NCBI GenBank assembly: GCA_020343455.1
Contig: CP070795.1
Coordinates: forward strand, 860,218-896,653
Origin: Caldifarciminota bacterium
GTDB taxonomy: Bacteria; Hydrothermota; Tepidihabitantia; SM23-42
Direction of reading: 5' to 3'
Length of the DNA stretch: 36,436 nucleotides
Shown here: positions 2 through 12,095 of the stretch, one piece after another
Position numbering within the stretch: the first letter of the stretch is position 1
Layout: every line of letters starts with the position of its first letter
The notes under the pieces: model-generated
Told to the model about the DNA's origin: nothing
The model's database searches: none
What the model saw: the letters and a program-made list of their open reading frames with translations, nothing else
Translations under genes and position numbers: made by a program

Positions 2-601
2 AAGCCGGACGCGGACCTCGTGCCGAAAATGGCAAGGGCCGGCGCCGGTCTCAATCTCTACATTTCCGGACTCGTCCACGATGAAAGAGGTCACCCGCTC
101 AAAGGCAAGGACTACAAATCGACACATGTCCGGCGCCTCGTTGACAAGATCCGGCTCAACAAGGACAAGATAATAGAATTGAGAGAAGAGGGTACTGATG
201 GCGCGGACGTCATCGTCGTTTCCTACGGGATATCTTCACGGGTTGCAGTGAAAGGTGTCGAGATCGCCCGGCAAAAAGGCATCAAAGTCGGCACGCTCAG
301 GCTCGTGACGGTCTGGCCCTTTCCTGACGAGCGCATAGTTGAACTTGCGAAAACAACAAAGGCTTTCGTCGTTCCGGAAATAAATTATGGACAGGTCGTC
401 TTTGATGTGGCCCGGTGCACTCACGGAAACGCCAACGTGGTCCTTGTGCCACATGGCGGTGCCGGTGTGCACAATCCTGCCGACGTCGCCGATGCAATCG
501 AATTCGCAGCCAAAAACGAATCCCCGCTCGAGGGCGTCCACGAGTTCAAAACCAGACTTGAGAAGTCCGTATTCGAGGGAGGTCTCAAATTAAAGGAATG
601 A
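2..601 (+). CDS. korA: 2-oxoacid:ferredoxin oxidoreductase, alpha subunit (C-terminal part)
   Basis: The frame is open from the first bases of the window, so the gene starts upstream and only about 200 C-terminal residues are seen. They match the end of KorA/PorA-type alpha subunits: the inter-domain segment with GLVHDERGHP, then the alpha/beta domain II with VVSYGISSR, LVTVWPFPDE and the VVPEINYGQ turn. In the family this subunit helps bind TPP and CoA and works with a TPP-binding beta subunit and a gamma subunit to oxidise a 2-oxoacid to acyl-CoA while reducing ferredoxin. The stop overlaps the start of korB as ATGA, which points to translational coupling. The substrate cannot be told from this fragment. 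It heads an operon with heterodisulfide-reductase-like genes. Confidence 0.85.
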   Translation, partial: KPDADLVPKMARAGAGLNLYISGLVHDERGHPLKGKDYKSTHVRRLVDKIRLNKDKIIELREEGTDGADVIVVSYGISSRVAVKGVEIARQKGIKVGTLRLVTVWPFPDERIVELAKTTKAFVVPEINYGQVVFDVARCTHGNANVVLVPHGGAGVHNPADVADAIEFAAKNESPLEGVHEFKTRLEKSVFEGGLKLKE

Positions 602-1374
602 ACCCGATCATCAATATTCTCGACAAAGGCATAGAGCAGTCCGGCGTCGACCGGAAGACGATCAGTATTCCCTCTGACATTCCTTTCCCGCCAGAGGCCG
701 TCAAAACACTGGGCATCGATTATTTTCAGACACCACGCGGCCGCGCCATTGCATTTGGTACAGGATTGAAACTAGGAAACCCTGCACTCAAAGTAATACC
801 GGTCGTCGGCGACCTCATGACGCTTGGCGGCAACCATTTCGTGCACGGAGCGCGGAGAAATATGGAGATTCTCGTTCTCTGTATAAATAATTTCGTCTAT
901 AAACGGATAGCAGGCAAACCATCACCATCTGTAAAGCCTGAGTTTTCAGCATACTCGACTTTTGAGGAGCCTTTCAATTTCCCCCATCTTGGAAATTCCT
1001 GCGGTGCCGTGTACACGGCACGATGGACAGCCCTGCACACGAAGGAACTGGCGACGTCAATTGCTGAAGCGCTCAACAAGCGCGGGTTGTCAATTATTGA
1101 GATCCTCGCACCCGGACCCAATTACTACCGAACGATCGATGGAGTCAATCTCGATATTCTGCAATTCTACCTCGACAATTCGATCATCAAGAACAACGAA
1201 GACCCGAGAAATGCCGCCATAACACCCGAAGAGAAGATTGTCGTGGGCACCTTCACCAACACGGAAAGACCTACGTTCATCGACTCATATAACCTCCAAC
1301 ACAAGAAGATACTGGGCGACAAATTCACACCCCATGGTGCGGCTCCGGCGGAACGAGGAGGAAAAGATGGCTGA
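598..1374 (+). CDS. korB: Divergent 2-oxoacid:ferredoxin oxidoreductase beta subunit
   Basis: The 258-residue protein follows the KorB fold: PRGRAIAFGTGLKLGNP at 46-62, GGNHFVHGARRN at 77-88 and CINN at 95-98. It is unusual in missing what KorB needs. The N-terminal CPGCGH segment is absent, because the protein begins at the helix after it. The third cluster Cys region reads SIPSDIPF, and the late PCPT motif is APGPNYY (171-177), so all four usual [4Fe-4S] ligands are gone and only two Cys remain (C95, C135). The TPP/Mg motif GDGD reads V69-V70-G71-D72, losing the first Asp, and NNxxYG is NNFVYK. Start fixed by the ATGA overlap with korA. It is either an inactive structural paralogue or an enzyme with altered electron transfer. 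Confidence 0.8.
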   Translation: MNPIINILDKGIEQSGVDRKTISIPSDIPFPPEAVKTLGIDYFQTPRGRAIAFGTGLKLGNPALKVIPVVGDLMTLGGNHFVHGARRNMEILVLCINNFVYKRIAGKPSPSVKPEFSAYSTFEEPFNFPHLGNSCGAVYTARWTALHTKELATSIAEALNKRGLSIIEILAPGPNYYRTIDGVNLDILQFYLDNSIIKNNEDPRNAAITPEEKIVVGTFTNTERPTFIDSYNLQHKKILGDKFTPHGAAPAERGGKDG

Positions 1375-1935: not shown

Positions 1936-4900
1936 ATGCCAAAAGGAGCACTCGTCGTCGGTGGAGGTGTGGCTGGGGTCCAGTCCGCTTTAGACTTGGC
2001 CAATGCTGGCTTCAAGGTTTTCCTTGTTGAACGCGGCCCGTGTCTGGGCGGTCGTACATCCCAGATTCACAAAATCTTCACGTCGATGGACTGTACGGGC
2101 TGAATCCTCGGTCCAAAACTGATGGATGTCGGTCGGCATCCGAACATTGAAATCTTCGCCAACAGCGAAGTCGTTGGGGTTGAGGGTGAAGCGCCTGATT
2201 TCAAAGTGAAGGTAAGACGCAAATCTACATTTGTCGACTGGGACAAATGCACTGGATGCGGTGAGTGTCCAACGGTCTGCCCGGTCCATGTCAACGATGA
2301 GTTCCAGTTGGACCTTTCAAAACGAGAGGCGATCTACCGCCGGTATCCCCAGGCAGTGCCGAACAAATTCCTCATCGACAAAAAGGGCTCGCCGCCCTGC
2401 CGGTATTCCTGTCCTGCAGGGGTCAATGCCCAGGGATACATTGCGCTCATTTCACAGGGCAAGTATAAGGAAGCGCTGGAGCTTGAACGCAGAGACAATC
2501 CATTCCCGGCTGTCTGCGGCCGTGTATGTACCCATCCCTGTGAATCAGACTGCAAACGAAAAGACGTTGATGAACCCCTGGCCATTGCCCAGCTCAAACG
2601 TTTCATCTCCGACCGCGAACCCCAATTGTCACCGGCAAATCCTGCCTTAGACAAAGAAAAAGTTGCCGTAGTTGGGGCAGGCCCTGCAGGCCTATCTGCT
2701 GCCTACTTCCTCGCCAAGAGAGGGTACCGCCCGACCGTCTTTGAGGCCACCGACCATCCGGGCGGCTTACTGTATTGGGCAATACCACGATTCAGATTAC
2801 CTGAGGCCGCGCTCATGCGGGATTTGGATCACATAAAGAGTTGGGGTGTCGAGGTGAGAACGGGTGCCGCCCTGGGAAAGGATTTTGGGATCAAGGATCT
2901 CTTCAAACAGGATTACAAGGCAATCTTCCTTGGATTGGGTGCGGCCAAAGAGAAATCGATGGGCATAGACGGCGAAGATCTGCAGGGTGTCGTTCTGTGT
3001 GTCCAATTTCTCAATAAGGCCGTTCACGATCCACAGACACCGGTCGGCAAAAGGGTAGCCGTCGTCGGCGGCGGCAACTCGGCAGTAGATGCCGTTCGTA
3101 CAGCGGTGCGACTCGGCGCCGAGGAAGCATTCATTGTCTACCGCCGTTCACGGCAGGAAATGCCGGCAAATGAAGAGGAGATCGTCGAAGCGGAAAAAGA
3201 GGGTGTCAAGATCCATTACCTGACCAATCCGACAAAGATATTCGGGAAAGACGGTAAAGTCACGGGAATGGAGTGCATAAAGATGAAGCTCGGCGAACCT
3301 GACTCTTCGGGCCGGAGAAAACCGATTCCGATCGAGGGTTCTGAATTCACCATGAACATCGATATGGTGATAATGGCGATCGGCCAAGCAGCCGACGTTT
3401 CATTCCTGACCAAAGAAGAAAATTTCGAATTGACTCGGTGGGGGACCTTCGCCGTAGACCCTGACACCCTGCAAACAAGTATTCCCGGCATCTTTGCCGG
3501 CGGTGACGCGGTCACCGGGCCGGCAACGGTCATCGAAGCGATCGCTGCGGGTAAGGAAGCTGCAGAATCGATCGACCGGTATATCAGGGGCGTGGATCCC
3601 AAAGAGAACAGGAAGAAGAAAGACGATCGCGTAAGGGATGAGGATATCGAGATCCCGGATGATATACAGATTCAAAAAAGAACGGCCATGCCCATGCTCG
3701 ATCCGGAAAAAGCAAAGAAGAATTTCGAAGAAGTCGGCCAGGGCTTCTCGGACGAACAGGCAAGAAAAGAATCGAATCGATGCCTCAGCTGCGCCGGCTG
3801 CTCAGAATGTCTCGAATGCGTCAAGGTGTGCGAACCAAATGCAATAGTACACGAAATGGTTGATGAATACGTTGATTTGGACGTGGGCTCGATCATCGTT
3901 ACGACAGGCGTCGATTACCTCGATCCCACCGAAGCAAGTGAATACGGATATAAGCGCTTCAAAAATGTCTACACGTCTTTTGAGATCGAAAGAATCATGA
4001 GCGAAGACGGACCGACCGCCGGCAAACTTCCTCTTGGCAAAGAACTGACAGAACCTCTCAGTTTTGCGTTCATCCAATGCGTTGGCTCGCGCAACATGCG
4101 CCATGATATCAACTACTGCAGCCGCATCTGTTGCATGAACACCATCAAGGATAGCCTGGTCTTAAAAGAACACTATCCTGACGCAAATATTGTCGTATTC
4201 TATATCGACATAAGAGCTTTTGGAAAAGGATTCGAAGAATTCTATAATAGATCCCTGGAAAAGGGTGTAAAATACATCAAGGGTAAGCCGTCGAAGATCA
4301 TTGAGGATGATCAGGGTAGCTTGGTCATACATTATGAAGATGAAGACGGGCACTCCAACAAGATGCTCTTCGATGCCGTGTGTCTCTCCTCCGCCTTGAT
4401 TCCATCAAAGGGCTGTAAAGATTTGGCCGAAGTACTCGGCGTCGATACGGACGAAGACGGTTTCTTCAAGAACACAGAGCCTGCAATCATGCCTCTTGAA
4501 TCAACAAAGAAAGGTATTTTGGTATGTGGGTGCGCCACAGGGCCCAAGGACATTACCGATTCGATCGCTGAGGCGAGCGGTGCCGCAGTGAAGGCAGCAT
4601 GTTTTCTGGAAGGCCATGAACTTCCAATCGAGAAAAAGGAGATCGAACAGGTCGATGTTTCCGGTCCGCCAAGAGTCGGTGTCTTTGTGTGCCACTGCGG
4701 TCCAAATATATCAAAGGTCGTCGATGTAAAGGCCGTCGTTGAATACGCGAAAACATTGCCGGATGTTGTTTTCGCCGAAGACTATGCTTTTGCCTGTTCT
4801 GAAACGGCCCAGCACCAGATTCAAGAACGGATAGCTGAGTACAAATTGAACAGGGTCGTCGTCGCCGCATGCACGCCCAAGACGCATGAAATAAGCTTCC

Positions 4901-6333
4901 AGGATTCACTGACGGCAGTCGGTCTCAACCCTTACCTCTTCGACATAGCCAATATCAGGAACCAGTGTTCCTGGGTACACCAGAAGGAACCAGAAAAGGC
5001 AACCGAGAAGGCAAGAGAATTGGTCAGGATGTCGGTGGCGCGAGTCCGAAAACTCGGCCCCCTATTCATGAAAGAACTCTCGGTTAATCGTGACGTCGCC
5101 ATCATCGGTGCCGGGATCACCGGCCTCAGATGCGGGATCGATCTGCTGCAGCGCGGTTACAAGGTCAAAATTATCGAAAAGAAAGAAGTATCAGGCGGCC
5201 TGGTCCGACATCTCTCAAGTATTTATCCCAGTTTCCGCGCAGGAAAAGACATCATCGAAAAACTCATCAAAGAATTCACCGGCGCGGGAGGTGAACTTCT
5301 GACCTCGACCGAACTTGTCGACGTCACCGGTTATGTAGGCAACTTCGGGGTCAAGGTGAAGCGGGACGCAAAAGAGAGCGAATTCACAGTGGGCGCCATC
5401 GTCCTGGCCACCGGTTCAGAACTATACGATCCAGCCGGGCGCCTTGGCCGCGACAGGTTCCCGAATGTGATAACCAACATGGAGCTGGAAGAGAAAATAC
5501 TATCGGGCGGGATCGAGGACGTAAAATCCGTTGCCTTTCTCCAGTGTATCGGTTCGAGAGGCGACGGCAATAATCCCGGCTGTTCTCGCTACTGCTGTCA
5601 GGCAGCAATAAAAGAAGCAATATATTTGAAAGAACGAGGGATCGACGTAGCAATTCTGAACCGCGGTGTCAGGGTCTATTCCAAAGGTGCTGAGCGGATG
5701 TACCGTAAGGCACGGGAACTCGGCGTTCTCTTCTTGCCATACGAGGGAGAACCGGAGATATCTGGAACCGATAAGGCGCAAGCAGTTACTGTTCCGTCGT
5801 CAGACATCGACGCCGATATTACGATCCCGGTCGACCTCGTCGTCCTATCGGTGGGTATGGTCCCTGCTGCCGATTCAGGCCATCTTTCAGAAGTATTCAA
5901 AGTACCGCGCGGGCCGGATAAATTCTTCCTGGAACGTCACTCCAAATTCGGACCAGTGGAAACGACGGTTGAAGGCGTTTTCTTGTGTGGTTGTTGTCAG
6001 TTCCCGCAGGATATCGGAGATTCCATCTCCCAGGCGTCGGCCGTAGCATCCAAAGTTGCTGCGCTGCTCAGCCGAGACAAGATCACCCTTGCACCTATTA
6101 CATCCACAGTCATCGAAGAATATTGCCGTGGTTGCGGCAGGTGTGCTGAAGTATGTGAATTCCATGCGATAGAATTGGTTGAAAAGGAGAAAGGAGTCTT
6201 CACGGCCAAGGTCAACGAAGCACTCTGCAAAGGTTGCGGAACATGTGTGGCCGCGTGTCCGACCGGCGCCATCGACCTCAGGCATTTCAGGAGCGAGCAG
6301 ATCGAAGCCCAGTTGGAGGCGCTGTTTGGCTAG
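1936..6333 (+). CDS. hdrA: HdrA-NfnB/GltD-HdrA fusion, predicted selenoprotein
   Basis: This is one 1465-residue reading frame if the UGA at 2101-2103 is read as selenocysteine (U56). Order of domains: HdrA FAD Rossmann N-terminus with the MDCTGU motif; a [12 protein letters not shown] cluster (105-116); an inserted GltD/NfnB-like NAD(P)H:FAD module (about 147-600) with its own N-terminal Cys cluster and two nucleotide loops, VVGAGPAG (245-252) and VVGGGNSA (376-383); the rest of the first HdrA with Cys-rich 615-632; a second HdrA from about 912 with VCHCG and IIGAGITG (1056-1063); and two C-terminal 4Fe-4S motifs (about 1400-1450). The second HdrA lacks the Cys/Sec motif. HdrA carries the flavin that bifurcates electrons in Hdr complexes. 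The inserted module suggests direct NAD(P)H input. It starts 2 nt after the gamma-subunit gene. Confidence 0.9.
2101..2141 (+). promoter_or_regulatory. Sec UGA codon and SECIS hairpin in the first hdrA
   Basis: The in-frame UGA is at 2101-2103. After a 20-nt spacer comes GGATGTC-GGTC-GGCATCC (2124-2141), a 7-bp stem with one U-G pair and a GGUC loop. Bacterial SECIS elements are short hairpins just downstream of UGA with a GGU-type apical loop that SelB binds. The residue lies where HdrA proteins have Cys or Sec before ILGPK, and HdrA is a known selenoprotein family. The same hairpin with the same spacing occurs in the second hdrA. Confidence 0.88.
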
Positions 6334-6375: not shown

Positions 6376-6906
6376 ATGCGACAGGGAGACAAGAAGAGCG
6401 GAGACAGTACGATAATGCCGAATTCTAAGAATACGGTGACGCAGCAATCACGCGACAAGACGACCGGCTTCGAGCCGAAGATCGTGGCTTTCTGCTGTAA
6501 CTGGTGTTCATACCCGGCAGCTGATGGTGCCGGCGTCGCAAGGCTTCAATATCCGACGAACATCAAGATCGTCAGGGTAATGTGCGGCGGTCGCGTAACG
6601 CCGTCCTTCGTATTGAAGGCATTCGAGCTGGGTGCGGATGGCGTTCTCGTTGCCACGTGCCATTTCGAAGACTGCCACTATATGTTCGGAGCACGCAAGG
6701 CTGCGGATGTCCACAAGATAACCGAAAGGCTCACTGCGATGCTCGGCATCGAAAAAGAACGCCTCAAACTAGATTGGATATCCTCAGCCGAAGCCTCCAA
6801 ATTCGCAAGGGTCGCCAAGGAATTCACCGAAACGATAAGAAAACTCGGACCATCCGCGATAAAGAAAAGTCCCTATGCCACCGATGAGATCATCGAAAAT
6901 GAATAG
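6376..6906 (+). CDS. mvhD: MvhD-like [2Fe-2S] electron-transfer subunit
   Basis: The protein has up to 176 residues and is the MvhD/FlpD (methyl-viologen-reducing hydrogenase delta) family. It shows the hallmark Cys series: FCCNWCSY, the later VMCGGRV, and ATCHFEDCHYMFG, followed by a conserved KLDWISSAEA. In methanogens and many anaerobes MvhD passes electrons from a hydrogenase or dehydrogenase to HdrA. Here it lies 42 nt after the giant hdrA with no hydrogenase nearby, so its donor is unknown. The start is uncertain: ATG 6376 has a close AAAGGA, while ATG 6415 gives a 163-residue protein closer to the usual N-terminus. Its end overlaps the next gene. Confidence 0.88.
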   Translation: MRQGDKKSGDSTIMPNSKNTVTQQSRDKTTGFEPKIVAFCCNWCSYPAADGAGVARLQYPTNIKIVRVMCGGRVTPSFVLKAFELGADGVLVATCHFEDCHYMFGARKAADVHKITERLTAMLGIEKERLKLDWISSAEASKFARVAKEFTETIRKLGPSAIKKSPYATDEIIENE

Positions 6907-8047
6907 CAAGATCGCCAAAGCCATCAGGGATTCGAAGGCATACCTATGCATGGAGTGTGGTAAATGCACAGGAACATGTCCGGTCTCGAGATACAACCAC
7001 GGATACTCTCCTCGAATTCTCGTCAACAAAGCAATAAGGAGCGGTAACCACGATCTGTTGAAGGACAAGAATATCTGGGCTTGTCTGACCTGCAAGTTAT
7101 GTGATGAAAGGTGTCCTGCCGCCATCGAATACATCGATCTCACGCTCACCACGCGTCTCGAAGCAAAAAAAATCGGAGAAGGAGCACTCTGTTCTCATGG
7201 CGGAGCGGCTCAATCGCTCATGCGCATTATGACAACACCCGAGCTGGAACAGAAGCGCCTCGATTGGATCGACAATGATCTGAAAACAACGCAGCAGGGC
7301 GATGTGCTATATTTTGTTGGATGCATGCCCTATTTCGACATCCTCTTCAGCGATATAAAAGTCAATACGTTGCAGGCAGCCAGGGCAAGTGTGAAGATTC
7401 TCAATAAGCTGGGCATTACGCCGGTTGTATTACCCCAGGAAAGATGTTGTGGCCACGATCTTCTCTGGAGCGGCGACATGGAGAATTTCGAGAAACTGGC
7501 GCGCCACAATATTGAAGAAATAACGAAGTCCGGCGCCAAGAGGATCGTCTTTTCGTGCCCCGAAGGTTATCGAACATTCAAGATCGATTATCCGAGATAC
7601 TTCGGTACTCATTTTCGAGTCGAGCATATCACTGAAACGATAGCCCGGGCAATATCGAACGGTGAACTCAAAATGAAAAACCTCGAAAAGGTTGTCACCT
7701 TTCAGGATCCGTGCCGGCTCGGCAGACACCTCCGAATCTATGACGAACCGAGAAAAGCCATCACCTCTGTACCCGGCCTGCAATTGAACGAAATGGCGAG
7801 GAGTCGCCAACGCGCGATATGCTGCGGCGTAAGTGCATGGATGAGCTGCTCGACTTATTCAAAGAGCATACAGCGCGCACGCCTTACCGAGGCAAAAGAA
7901 ACAGGGGCCGATCTGTTCGTTCTCTCCTGCCCAAAATGTGAAATCCATTTCCAGTGTGCCATGAGTGACGAAAAAGCAGGAAATGACACGAGGATCGAAA
8001 CGATCCAATTGGTCACTCTAATCGCAGATGCACTGGAGGACGGGTAA
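6899..8047 (+). CDS. HdrD-like iron-sulfur protein (HdrC-HdrB type fusion)
   Basis: About 382 residues from ATG 6899; ATG 6875 is an alternative start that would add 8. The N-terminus has two 4Fe-4S motifs, CMECGKCTGTCP and CLTCKLCDERCP, as in HdrC. Two CCG domains follow, as in HdrB/HdrD: the first with FVGC, RCCGHD and SCPEGY, the second with DPCRLGRH, ICCGVSAW and SCPKCE. In HdrD the CCG domains hold the noncubane clusters that reduce disulfides. The first CCG domain has Gly where the last Cys of its CPxC motif is expected, so it may lack a full cluster. It overlaps mvhD by 8 nt and ends one base into hdrC. Confidence 0.85.
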   Translation: MNSKIAKAIRDSKAYLCMECGKCTGTCPVSRYNHGYSPRILVNKAIRSGNHDLLKDKNIWACLTCKLCDERCPAAIEYIDLTLTTRLEAKKIGEGALCSHGGAAQSLMRIMTTPELEQKRLDWIDNDLKTTQQGDVLYFVGCMPYFDILFSDIKVNTLQAARASVKILNKLGITPVVLPQERCCGHDLLWSGDMENFEKLARHNIEEITKSGAKRIVFSCPEGYRTFKIDYPRYFGTHFRVEHITETIARAISNGELKMKNLEKVVTFQDPCRLGRHLRIYDEPRKAITSVPGLQLNEMARSRQRAICCGVSAWMSCSTYSKSIQRARLTEAKETGADLFVLSCPKCEIHFQCAMSDEKAGNDTRIETIQLVTLIADALEDG

Positions 8048-8547
8048 TGGCCAAAGAAAAAATAACAGTCGATTTCCGATTTCGCGACAAACTCAATAAA
8101 GTCCAGGGCGGCAAACATCACAATTACTGCTACCAATGCAGTGCCTGCGTTGCCGTCTGCCCTGCGGCACGATTCACCGAAGATTTCAATCCGCGGGTGA
8201 TCTTGTTGAAGGCTCTTCTCGGTATGGAAGAAGCGCTGACCGGCGAAGACTCGCCAATATGGCTCTGTACGAACTGTTATTCATGTTACGAGCGTTGCCC
8301 GCAAGATGTACGCCCCATTGAAGTGATCATCGCTTTGAAGAACATGGCCGTGGAGCGACAGAAGGCACCGGCAAGTCTTGCGAAACTCTCGGAAAACATT
8401 GCGCAAACCGGCGTCAGCGTCACAATAACCTCTGCGGTCAACAGACGAAGGCAGGAATTGGGTCTTCCTCCCCTCAGAACGATACCTATCGCCGACTTAA
8501 AAAAGATCTTAGAGGATCCGCAAGGTACACCAGAGGATAGTGAATAG
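8047..8547 (+). CDS. hdrC: Heterodisulfide reductase subunit C-like protein
   Basis: The 166-residue protein has two ferredoxin-type motifs, C28-C31-C34-C38 and CTNCYSCYERCPQ, followed by a helical tail, which is the HdrC layout. In Hdr complexes HdrC relays electrons from HdrA to HdrB. The ATG overlaps the last base of the preceding stop, and the next gene (hdrB) starts 3 nt after this one, so all three are co-translated. The C-terminal segment, with VNRRRQELGLPP, is like that of bacterial HdrC proteins of uncharacterised Hdr complexes. The natural substrate is unknown, since no coenzyme M/B pathway is evident here. Confidence 0.9.
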   Translation: MAKEKITVDFRFRDKLNKVQGGKHHNYCYQCSACVAVCPAARFTEDFNPRVILLKALLGMEEALTGEDSPIWLCTNCYSCYERCPQDVRPIEVIIALKNMAVERQKAPASLAKLSENIAQTGVSVTITSAVNRRRQELGLPPLRTIPIADLKKILEDPQGTPEDSE

Positions 8548-8550
8548 AAG

Positions 8551-9435
8551 ATGAAAGTCATACCATTTTGGGGTTGTATGATGCCTCTCAAGTATCCACA
8601 GATGGAACTGGCAATCAGAAAGACCCTTCCCAATCTCGGTGTCGAACTCGTTGACATCGACGGCTTCACCTGTTGCCCGGACCCCATATACTTCAAAGCC
8701 CGGGATAAGATCAAATGGCTCACCATCGCCGCCCGTAATCTGGCAATAGCCGAAGAAACGGGTCTCGAAGTGATCACCATGTGTTCGGGTTGCATATCAA
8801 CTCTGAAGGAAGCGAAATACACCCTCGACGAAGACCCCCAAACGAAGGAAGAAGTCAACCGGCGGTTGAAGAGAGTGAACAAGGAATACAAAGGAACCGC
8901 GAAGATCAGTCACGCGGTGGTGTTGATCAGAGATACCCTGGGACTGGATGTTGTCAAGAAGTCCATAAAGCAGCCGCTCGATGGAGTCACAGTCGCTATC
9001 CACTATGGCTGTCATATACTGAAGCCGAGCCAGATCATGCATGTCGATGATGCCGACTATCCTAGCATTCTCGATGATTTCGTCGCCGCAATAGGCGCCA
9101 CACCGCTCGATCACCGAGAGAAATTACTATGCTGTGGCAAGGGATGTATGGACGAAGACCTTCCACTGGAAATGACCGAGACCATCTTTGCCTCGATCGA
9201 GGCGAGCGGCGCAGATTGCATGGGGCTTGTGTGTCCGACCTGTTTTTCTTCATTTGACCTTGGACAGATAATGATTTCCCGTAAAAAAGGGAAGACCTAT
9301 AATATTCCCGTCATTTATCTATTCCAACTCCTCGGCCTTGCGCAAGGGCTGGAGCCAGAAGAAGTGGGCCTCCATACACATCGGATAAAAGCCGACCGGG
9401 TGCTGGAAAAAATAAAAGAAAGCGCAAGAAAATGA
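8551..9435 (+). CDS. hdrB: Heterodisulfide reductase subunit B-like protein
   Basis: The 294-residue protein has two complete CCG domains: C9, C41-C42, C78-C81 in the first, and C154, C194-C195, C228-C231 in the second. This is the HdrB pattern that carries two noncubane [4Fe-4S] clusters at the disulfide-reducing site. In bacteria the acceptor of such HdrABC complexes is usually unknown (candidates are protein or small-molecule disulfides). The ATG lies just after hdrC. The gene is followed by about 200 nt of noncoding, repeat-like DNA before the second hdrA. Confidence 0.92.
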   Translation: MKVIPFWGCMMPLKYPQMELAIRKTLPNLGVELVDIDGFTCCPDPIYFKARDKIKWLTIAARNLAIAEETGLEVITMCSGCISTLKEAKYTLDEDPQTKEEVNRRLKRVNKEYKGTAKISHAVVLIRDTLGLDVVKKSIKQPLDGVTVAIHYGCHILKPSQIMHVDDADYPSILDDFVAAIGATPLDHREKLLCCGKGCMDEDLPLEMTETIFASIEASGADCMGLVCPTCFSSFDLGQIMISRKKGKTYNIPVIYLFQLLGLAQGLEPEEVGLHTHRIKADRVLEKIKESARK

Positions 9436-9641: not shown

Positions 9642-12095
9642 ATGCCGAAGGACGATTTGAAGATCGGAGTATTTGTTTGCGAATGTGGTACAAACATCGC
9701 CGGCTCAGTCGACGTCGACAGTGTCGTTGAGGAAGCAAAGAAGATAGGCGGCGTCGTATACAGCAGCAAGAACCGCTACATGTGTTCCGAACCAGGTCAA
9801 GCAGAGATAAAGAAAGCAATAGCAGAAGAAAAACTCGACCGGGTCATTATCGCCGCGTGCTCGCCACGTATGCACGAACCGACGTTCAGGGAATGTGTGG
9901 CCTCGGTCGGACTGAATCCTTACCTCGTTGACATGGCAAATATCCGGGAACAATGCTCGTGGGTTCATATGGGCAACCGTGAAGCCGCTACGACGAAAGC
10001 CAAAGATATCATGAAAGCGTACATTGCCAGAGCGCGATACCTGCAACCGCAGGAGGAAAGGGAAATACCGGTTGAAAAAGCAACGCTGGTCATCGGTGGC
10101 GGGATAGCAGGGATGCAGTCGGCGCTCGATTTGGCCGATGCAGGTTATCAGGTATACCTCGTCGAGAAGGAGCCCTCGCTCGGCGGCTTGATGTCTAAAC
10201 TGGCAAAGACCTATCCGACAATGGACTGCGCGATATGAATACTCGGCCCGAAGATGATGGATGTCGGTCGACATCCCAACATCAAACTCCTGACATATAG
10301 CAAAGTTGAATCGATAAAAGGATATGTCGGTAACTTCGACGTTAAGGTTCTGAAGAAGGCACGTTATGTAGATGAAACTCAGTGTACCGCGTGCGGTGAT
10401 TGCGCCAAAGTATGCCCCGTTGTCGTACCGGATGAATACCAGCAGGGACTGTCATCGAGAAAAGCAATCTATATACCATTCCCGCAGGCTGTACCATCGG
10501 CATCTCTGATCGATATGAACAGCTGTCTCGGCACAAACCCCATTGCATGCGGCAAGTGCGCCGAAAAATGTGACAAGAAATGCATAGACTACGATGCAAA
10601 GGACGAAACGATCGAGTTCAGGGTCGGTACCGTTATCGTAGCAACAGGAATGGATGTATTCGACCCGGTAATTCTGGAAGAATACGGCTACACAAAATAC
10701 GAGAATGTTGTTACGAGTATGGAGTTTGAAAGACTGCTGTCTGCCGGAGGGCCCTCTGACGGACACTTCATCCGTCCGACCGACAGGAAAAGACCGAAGA
10801 CGGTCGGCTTTGTACAATGCGTCGGCTCACGTTGCGAAAGAATCGGTAAACCCTACTGCAGCAATATCTGTTGTATGAACACGATCAAGGACACGCTATT
10901 ATTGAAAGACCACTACCCCGACATACAGGCAAAGGTTTTCTACATTGATATCAGAGCGTTCGGCAAGGGCTTCGAAGATCTATTCGCCAGGAGCAAAGAA
11001 GCAGGCGTCCAGTACATCAGGGGCATTCCCGGAGAGATCGCCGAGGACCCCAAATCCCGCAACCTGAAGGTCCTGGTCGAAGATACTACTTCCAATAAGA
11101 TCGAAGAACATGAATTCGACATGATGGTTCTTTCTGTCGGAGTGACGCCGAGATTCGATATGCCCGAGGTCCAGCAACTACTTACACTATCAAAGACGCC
11201 CGACGGCTTCTTCATGGAAGCACACCCGAAACTCAAACCAGTCGATGCACCATCGACCGGAATATATTTTGCAGGTTGTGCAGAGGCGCCGAAGGACGTC
11301 AAGGACTCGGTAACCCAAGCAAGCGCAGCAGCAGCCAGAGCTGAAACACTGTTATCCGCAGGCAAGGTGAAACTCGAAGCGATCACTTCCACTCTGAATA
11401 CCGATCTTTGCAGGTATTGTGCAACTTGTTCCAGAGTCTGTCCGTACGGAGCATTCACCGTCGATCCCAAGAAGAAAACCATATCCTACATCGAGGCGCT
11501 TTGCAAGGGATGCGGTACGTGCGCCGCAGAGTGCCGGTTTGGCGCTCTGACAATGAAGCATTTTACCGATGAACAGATCATTACTCAAATCGACGCCCAT
11601 CTTGCCAAAGATCCCCAGGAGAAGGTAGTCGTCTTTGCCTGCAATTGGTGCTCTTATGCGGGCGCCGATACATGCGGCGGAGCGCGGCTGCAGTACCCGC
11701 CTAATCAACGCCTGATCCGAACGATGTGCAGTGGCAGGGTAGACGAAAAATTCGTCCTCCACGCGTTCAAAAAAGGCGCGCCCATGGTAGTTGTATCCGG
11801 TTGCCACTACGTCGATTGCCACTATATCGATGCAAACCGCTGGACCCAGAAGAGGGTGGAGAAACTCTGGGACAAACTCGAAAGATGGGGGATCCGGCCC
11901 GAGAGATTGCTCCTCGAATGGATAAGCGCTGCGGAAGGGCAAAGGTTCCAGAAGACCATGCAGGATATCGAAGAACTGAGAAAGAAAGTGACACAGGAAG
12001 AGATCGAACACACGATCAAGGTCCTGACCGAGGAAGAAGAAAAAACCAAGGCAAAAGCGAAGCAGACAGGCGGTAAAGCTCAGAAGAAATCCTAG
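9642..12095 (+). CDS. hdrA: HdrA-MvhD fusion, predicted selenoprotein
   Basis: An 817-residue protein if the UGA at 10236-10238 is read as selenocysteine (U199). Domains in order: N-terminal VCECG Cys domain; Rossmann FAD fold with VIGGGIAG; the [20 protein letters not shown] motif; C248-C251-C254-C258 cluster; the HdrA core with CVGSRC and SNICCMNT; a 4Fe-4S pair (CRYCATCSRVCP, CKGCGTC); and from about 660 a fused MvhD domain with FACNWCSY, MCSGR and GCHYVDCHY. The tail is Lys/Glu-rich. The start is ATG 9642, since AAGGGGGTGATC just before it is nearly the full anti-16S complement. The HdrA flavin is the bifurcation site; the fused MvhD domain takes electrons from a partner not visible here. 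Confidence 0.92.
10236..10276 (+). promoter_or_regulatory. Sec UGA codon and SECIS hairpin in the second hdrA
   Basis: UGA at 10236-10238, then a 20-nt spacer, then GGATGTC-GGTC-GACATCC (10259-10276), a perfect 7-bp stem with a GGUC loop. Compared with the first hdrA, stem position 6 pairs U-A here and U-G there, so pairing is kept. The same frame runs through the UGA with uninterrupted HdrA homology on both sides. Confidence 0.9.

Follow-up and report, generated by a model that had tools for sequence, protein, structure and literature searches.

The OFORs described in one structural study are dimers of identical protomers (PMC5020499). In StOFOR1 of Sulfolobus tokodaii, the residues lining the substrate pocket include Asp468a', which the partner protomer supplies, and in StOFOR the C-terminus of the beta subunit extends over the other protomer (PMC5020499). 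StOFOR1/2, H. pylori OorDABC and Magnetococcus OGOR are all such dimers, with two TPP sites; by contrast, in candidate division WOR-3 we found a degenerate second gene copy for both the alpha and the beta subunit. In BbsCD dehydrogenase and eukaryotic NAD-IDH a catalytic subunit is paired with an inactive paralog, and the WOR-3 Kor resembles them in duplication, predicted loss of catalysis in one copy, and retention of both. A literature search turned up no described case of an OFOR pseudo-subunit or inactive paralogous OFOR subunit. The part of the WOR-3 genome paper available to us lists korABCD and does not mention a duplicated set.

The stretch of DNA analysed here (the window, 36,436 nucleotides) comes from a WOR-3 MAG, the nearest named genome being CP070705.1 (93% identical protein). 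Its gene korB2 (positions 598–1374, + strand) encodes a 258-aa homolog of the beta subunit, with a start codon overlapping the stop codon of the upstream korA2 (ATGA, 598–601), bearing out the coupling to korA claimed in the initial annotation. KorB2 matched Pfam TPP_enzyme_C (E=7e-16), and scored 96.7 bits against the NCBIfam profile TIGR02177 PorB_KorB, under its curated cut-off of 261.9. The closest PDB match was the beta subunit of S. tokodaii OFOR1 (E=1e-20). An AlphaFold2 model (pLDDT 78, pTM 0.82; confidence low near residues 109–123 and at the C-terminal end) took the OFOR beta fold, and its top Foldseek matches were the OFOR beta chains 5b48_B, 6n2n_B and 8ys5_C (E=4e-15), from StOFOR, Magnetococcus OGOR and H. 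pylori OorB. By these matches and the model, KorB2 is a KorB/PorB-type protein with the OFOR domain VI / TPP_enzyme_C fold retained, as the initial annotation had it, and shares domain VI with StOFOR1/2, OorDABC and OGOR. Its operon setting is also that of a KorB/PorB beta subunit, with korA and korC beside korB2 in 23/23 loci.

The ligands of the cofactors are gone. All four Cys of the proximal [4Fe-4S] cluster were missing from every aligned KorB2. Relative to StOFOR1 beta, KorB2 has no N-terminal segment and with it no equivalents of Cys12 and Cys15; Cys46 is replaced by Phe30, where SDIPF (673–687, + strand) stands in place of SGIGC, and Cys197 by Gly173, where APGP (1108–1119, + strand) replaces SPCG/PCP. 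In the GDGD region KorB1 reads SGDGDLMAIGGNH and KorB2 reads V--GDLMTLGGNH, a 2-residue deletion in the GDG...N Mg2+-TPP motif that is common to all KorB2 (SGDGDL of intact KorBs becomes V-GDL; the motif lies at 802–813, + strand). By alignment, Asp72 of KorB2 is paired with the second Asp and the deleted one is the Mg2+-binding Asp of GDG; the VVGD of the initial annotation is more exactly this deletion. TGGQxxPTTP is missing as well. The Asn pair of the TPP motif is still present in the window (NNFVY, 886–900, + strand) and its NN Asn is retained in most KorB2, the second Asn being Ser or His in several orthologs. In all, 41 positions that are conserved in single-copy enzymes and present in KorB1 were gone in KorB2, the cluster Cys among them. 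KorB2 is therefore predicted to lack a [4Fe-4S] cluster and probably does not bind Mg-TPP normally, as had been suggested.

Two alternatives named in the initial annotation were rejected. Ligands displaced elsewhere in the protein could not make up a self-contained cluster, since KorB2 has two Cys in total (95 and 135), both in fold-core positions. A frameshift or missed N-terminus is excluded because the frame closes just upstream, with the ATG overlapping the korA2 stop, and the short N-terminus is common to all KorB2 orthologs.

The window holds only part of the operon. It opens with the 3' part of korA2 (2–601, + strand; Pfam PFOR_II/Transketolase_C), a catalytic-type alpha subunit whose 5' part is cut off at the window edge by an assembly gap, a run of N, and is found at ∼581.5–583 kb of the same assembly. 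This 5' half, korB1 and korA1 lie ∼277 kb away on the opposite strand of the same "single contig", indicating an error of scaffolding or a rearrangement of the MAG at this point; the corresponding genes are contiguous in relatives. Both korB1 and the degenerate korA1 lie beyond the gap and had been missed in the initial annotation. The order korA1-korB1-korA2-korB2-korC (the pentad) was found in each of the 23 loci whose flanks were long enough (21 plus L087 and L089). In an intact relative (L034) korA2 encodes 420 aa, with YPITPST, QMEDE and QRGGPSTGVPTKT. The gamma subunit gene korC (1367–1933, + strand; Pfam POR, E=2e-33) is single-copy.

Once both gene pairs are compared, the losses prove complementary. 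Taking residue roles from StOFOR (PMC5020499), the Thr of YPITP and the Thr of PSTG were each present in 20/20 KorA2 and 0/20 KorA1 (the YPITP position in KorA1 being Val in 10, Met in three, Pro and Glu in two each, and Ala, Gln and Ile in one each). The Arg344 equivalent was in 20/20 KorA2 and 9/20 KorA1. KorB1 retains GDGD, NN and the four Cys in 20/20, so that KorA2 and KorB1, 20/20 each, have what a complete catalytic alpha–beta pair requires and stand as normal members, with KorC, alongside StOFOR1/2, OorDABC and OGOR. The alignments show that korA1 and korB2 have degenerated at predicted catalytic positions and that korA2 and korB1 have not, as expected if KorA2 and KorB1 make up a complete active site and KorA1 and KorB2 a dead one. 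Moorella oxalate oxidoreductase (OOR), which has the OFOR fold, likewise has a changed YPITP (YPIRP), but it remains catalytic with TPP and clusters, whereas the replacement in KorA1 is unconstrained and KorB2 has lost its cofactor ligands.

We searched the phylum for korB2 and found it in 26 of 147 genomes; a 27th match (G067) was a single ordinary KorB and was left out of the count. A collection-wide search recovers close relatives only, and the distribution given here is that within WOR-3, from MAGs only. In other WOR-3 genomes korA and korB are each single and retain every catalytic residue. In trees KorB2 formed one clade (100/100 support), sister to KorB1, and KorA1 and KorA2 were sister clades from the same genomes as KorB1 and KorB2; the matching topologies show a single tandem duplication of one ancestral korAB pair. 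The dN/dS of korB2 was 0.06–0.11 for pairs with unsaturated dS and that of korB1 was 0.03–0.06; korB2 is under purifying selection, somewhat weaker than for korB1, and korA1 is also under purifying selection. With 26 genomes, monophyly and purifying selection, the losses in KorB2 go far beyond chance. Two species of one genus (G003 and G005) carry just one korAB, of the ordinary kind, within this hdr-frd-kor cluster. There a single korABC, of a type seen in another family of the order, sits behind frdA (L062 and L058), in the place taken in L034, of the same genus, by the pentad, which suggests replacement of the gene cluster. One further observation concerns G139 (L046:2452–3216, L088), where korB2 is broken into two frames of 154 and 100 aa; this is a frameshift or sequencing error, found in one genome only.

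We consider it likely that the product of korB2 is the beta half of a dedicated pseudo-protomer in an (A2B1)(A1B2)C oxidoreductase, where A and B denote the KorA and KorB copies. The ancestral (alpha-beta-gamma)2 dimer would have given way to two unlike heterodimers arranged with pseudo-symmetry, (A2B1)(A1B2), together with KorC. The [4Fe-4S] cluster, Mg-TPP and the substrate, probably 2-oxoglutarate, would all be bound by A2B1, which would carry out all catalysis and electron exit; A1B2 would be a non-catalytic scaffold, whose A1 trans-loop would complete the A2B1 site across the dimer interface and whose B2 tail would probably clasp A2B1. The complete korB1 and degenerate korA1 in the operon argue that KorB2 makes up half of a pseudo-protomer rather than serving an odd enzyme as its beta subunit; the gene order in 23/23 loci, the single korC, purifying selection, and the single korAB in the same context in G003 and G005 support this reading. 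A structural role for KorB2, suggested at the outset, is thus likely; an enzyme whose electrons leave by another path, suggested with it, is not needed, since KorB1 has the cluster.

Both predicted contacts left a trace in the alignments. The equivalent of the StOFOR1 Asp468a' loop in the window's korA2 is NLYISGLVHDERGHP (53–97, + strand; HMMER alignments), and the Asp468a' column falls on the Leu of TGLTHD. This column was Leu in 20/20 KorA1 and in 11/11 single-copy enzymes; in KorA2 it was Leu in 11 and Arg in four, the others being Gln, Ile, Val, His and Asp. The motif FHVTGLTHDxRGYP is nearly unchanged in KorA1, and its TG has become SG, SA or SP in several KorA2. When the alpha alignment was scanned in every window of 14 columns for KorA1 being more ancestral than KorA2, the trans-loop ranked first and the substrate-side windows ranked at the opposite end. 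A loop kept in KorA1 and relaxed in KorA2 is the pattern to be expected if the A2B1 site is served by A1, with no live site left for A2 to serve. The other trace is a C-terminal tail, GDKFTPHG in KorB2 (1315–1338, + strand; alignment), with the consensus (G)(D)KFxP(Y/H)G; 20/20 KorB2 have it, as do the clade's single-copy relatives, and KorB1 has lost it. We infer from this reciprocal retention an (A2B1)(A1B2) particle rather than an A2B1 homodimer. Several results count against the pseudo-protomer model. The QMEDE Glu, equivalent to the TPP-activating Glu294, is kept in 20/20 KorA1 as in 20/20 KorA2, and a fully dead A1B2 site would not need it; it may be structural or a trace of residual TPP binding. 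The Arg344 equivalent in 9/20 KorA1 and the NN Asn in most KorB2 point the same way. In a mirror-tree analysis the top partial correlation was B1–B2 (0.58), and neither the A1–B2 nor the A2–B1 pairing was singled out. The family also has a narrow range, being known from MAGs of a single candidate phylum, and the operon of the window's own MAG is split by a gap.

As for substrate and acceptor, the GIGCTGR of KorB1 places a basic residue where StOFOR1 has Lys49b, which that enzyme requires for 2-oxoglutarate (PMC5020499). Many pentads have genes for fumarate-reductase-like FrdAB as neighbors, and the L054 pentad has sucCD; these names come from reading the sequences, not from a family scan. The basic residue and these neighbors point to 2-oxoglutarate as the probable substrate of the proposed (A2B1)(A1B2)C. 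Downstream of korC in the window, all on the + strand, are an HdrA-GltD-HdrA fusion (HdrL-like; 1936–6333, profile matches), mvhD/FlpD (6376–6906; Pfam FlpD, E=2e-49), an HdrD/DsrK-like gene with Fer4 and two CCG domains (6875–8047; Pfam), hdrC (8047–8547; profile matches) and hdrB (8551–9435; TIGR03288, 299.6 bits). The order in L034 is [hdrA-mvhD-hdrC-hdrB-frdB-frdA]-korA1-korB1-korA2-korB2-korC-hdrA(L)-mvhD-hdrD/K, beyond which the window adds hdrC-hdrB. Upstream of korA1, L034:1–5589 contains a second hdrA-mvhD-hdrC-hdrB and, after it, genes for a 2Fe-2S/4Fe-4S protein and for a flavoprotein resembling fumarate reductase, possibly an Hdr-Frd-Kor-Hdr supercluster. Transfer of electrons to HdrL-MvhD-HdrBC is plausible where hdrA adjoins korC, and in many genomes the proposed enzyme would probably hand its electrons to this neighboring complex.

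An in-frame TGA occurs at matching positions in two HdrA genes of the window (2101–2103, in the fusion, MDCTG-U-ILGPK; 10236–10238, MDCAI-U-ILGPK), probably selenocysteine in both. A selB match over the cut-off was found in this genome and in seven related genomes; the tRNA-Sec candidate in this MAG was below cut-off. ORF callers will truncate such HdrA genes. Loci with Sec-containing HdrA/HdrL (an HdrA-GltD fusion) and MvhD appear in the portion of a report on Desulfobacterium autotrophicum available to us (PMC2702500). The window's HdrA/GltD fusion with in-frame TGA and mvhD resembles that HdrL, but in the same portion no Kor pentad is described at the HdrL loci (PMC2702500).

The initial annotation had offered a role as an adaptor to HdrA; in the form considered here, KorB2 (with KorA1) would mainly dock Kor to HdrA/HdrL and channel electrons into the Hdr complex. 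The association stands in part: both the window and ∼18/23 pentad loci have hdrA directly 3' of korC, and the KorB2 tail is also found in single-copy KorBs of the clade that are mostly hdr-linked, and is missing from ∼15 KorBs without hdr neighbors. As the defining role it is unlikely, because the linkage is not constant. Pentads without adjoining hdr genes occur in G012 and G008 (L049, L051), and that of G091 (L054) adjoins sucCD/frdAB/rnfC instead, with no adjoining hdrA in any of the three; KorB2 and its tail are unchanged there. Conversely, one KorB without the tail is nonetheless hdr-linked (L064), which together with the hdr-free pentads weakens the tail as a strict HdrA-docking signature, and four hdr-linked single-copy KorABs do without any KorB2 (L056, L057, L061, L065). 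KorB2 would also hold no Fe-S cluster for electron transfer to HdrA.

It is quite improbable that the pairs form separate complexes, an active (A2B1)2C and an independent A1B2 acting as a regulator or as a CoA or metabolite sensor. Purifying selection on both A1 and B2, the QMEDE Glu of A1 and the many fold residues retained in B2 would suit such a protein; but the A2 trans-loop of a homodimeric A2B1 would still serve a live site, yet it is A2 that is relaxed here and A1 that is preserved, and there is only one korC and no tail on B1. The pairing (A1B1)(A2B2), with two altered sites and an A1B1 substrate not needing the Thr/Arg pair, is very improbable. It would match the gene order, in which A1B1 and A2B2 are co-duplicated neighbors, and in MtOOR the YPITP Thr can change for another substrate (YPIRP; PMC5020499), but the any-of-seven amino acids at this column in A1 look like relaxation rather than new specificity, and A2 would keep a perfect substrate site uselessly beside a TPP-less B2. 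Decay, a pseudogene or a sequencing artefact has a negligible chance as a general explanation, despite the broken frame in G139 and an own MAG that is incomplete and gapped beside korB2, given 26 genomes with the same lengths, the same losses, low dN/dS and invariant gene order.

Counts of korB genes in WOR-3 MAGs overestimate the number of oxoacid oxidoreductases, and kor genes there need a check of cofactor residues. Returning to the pseudo-protomer, we think it fairly likely that this is an OFOR with obligate asymmetry, with one active site per particle and a pseudo-protomer encoded by separate genes that would contribute the trans-loop and the clasp. In thiamine enzymes, communication between alternating sites is still debated. 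If the reading is true, the WOR-3 enzyme would offer a natural experiment on whether a second active site is something that OFOR protomers depend on or communicate with, and a half without substrate, TPP or cluster binding, strictly conserved next to the active one, would separate the catalytic from the structural roles of each protomer.
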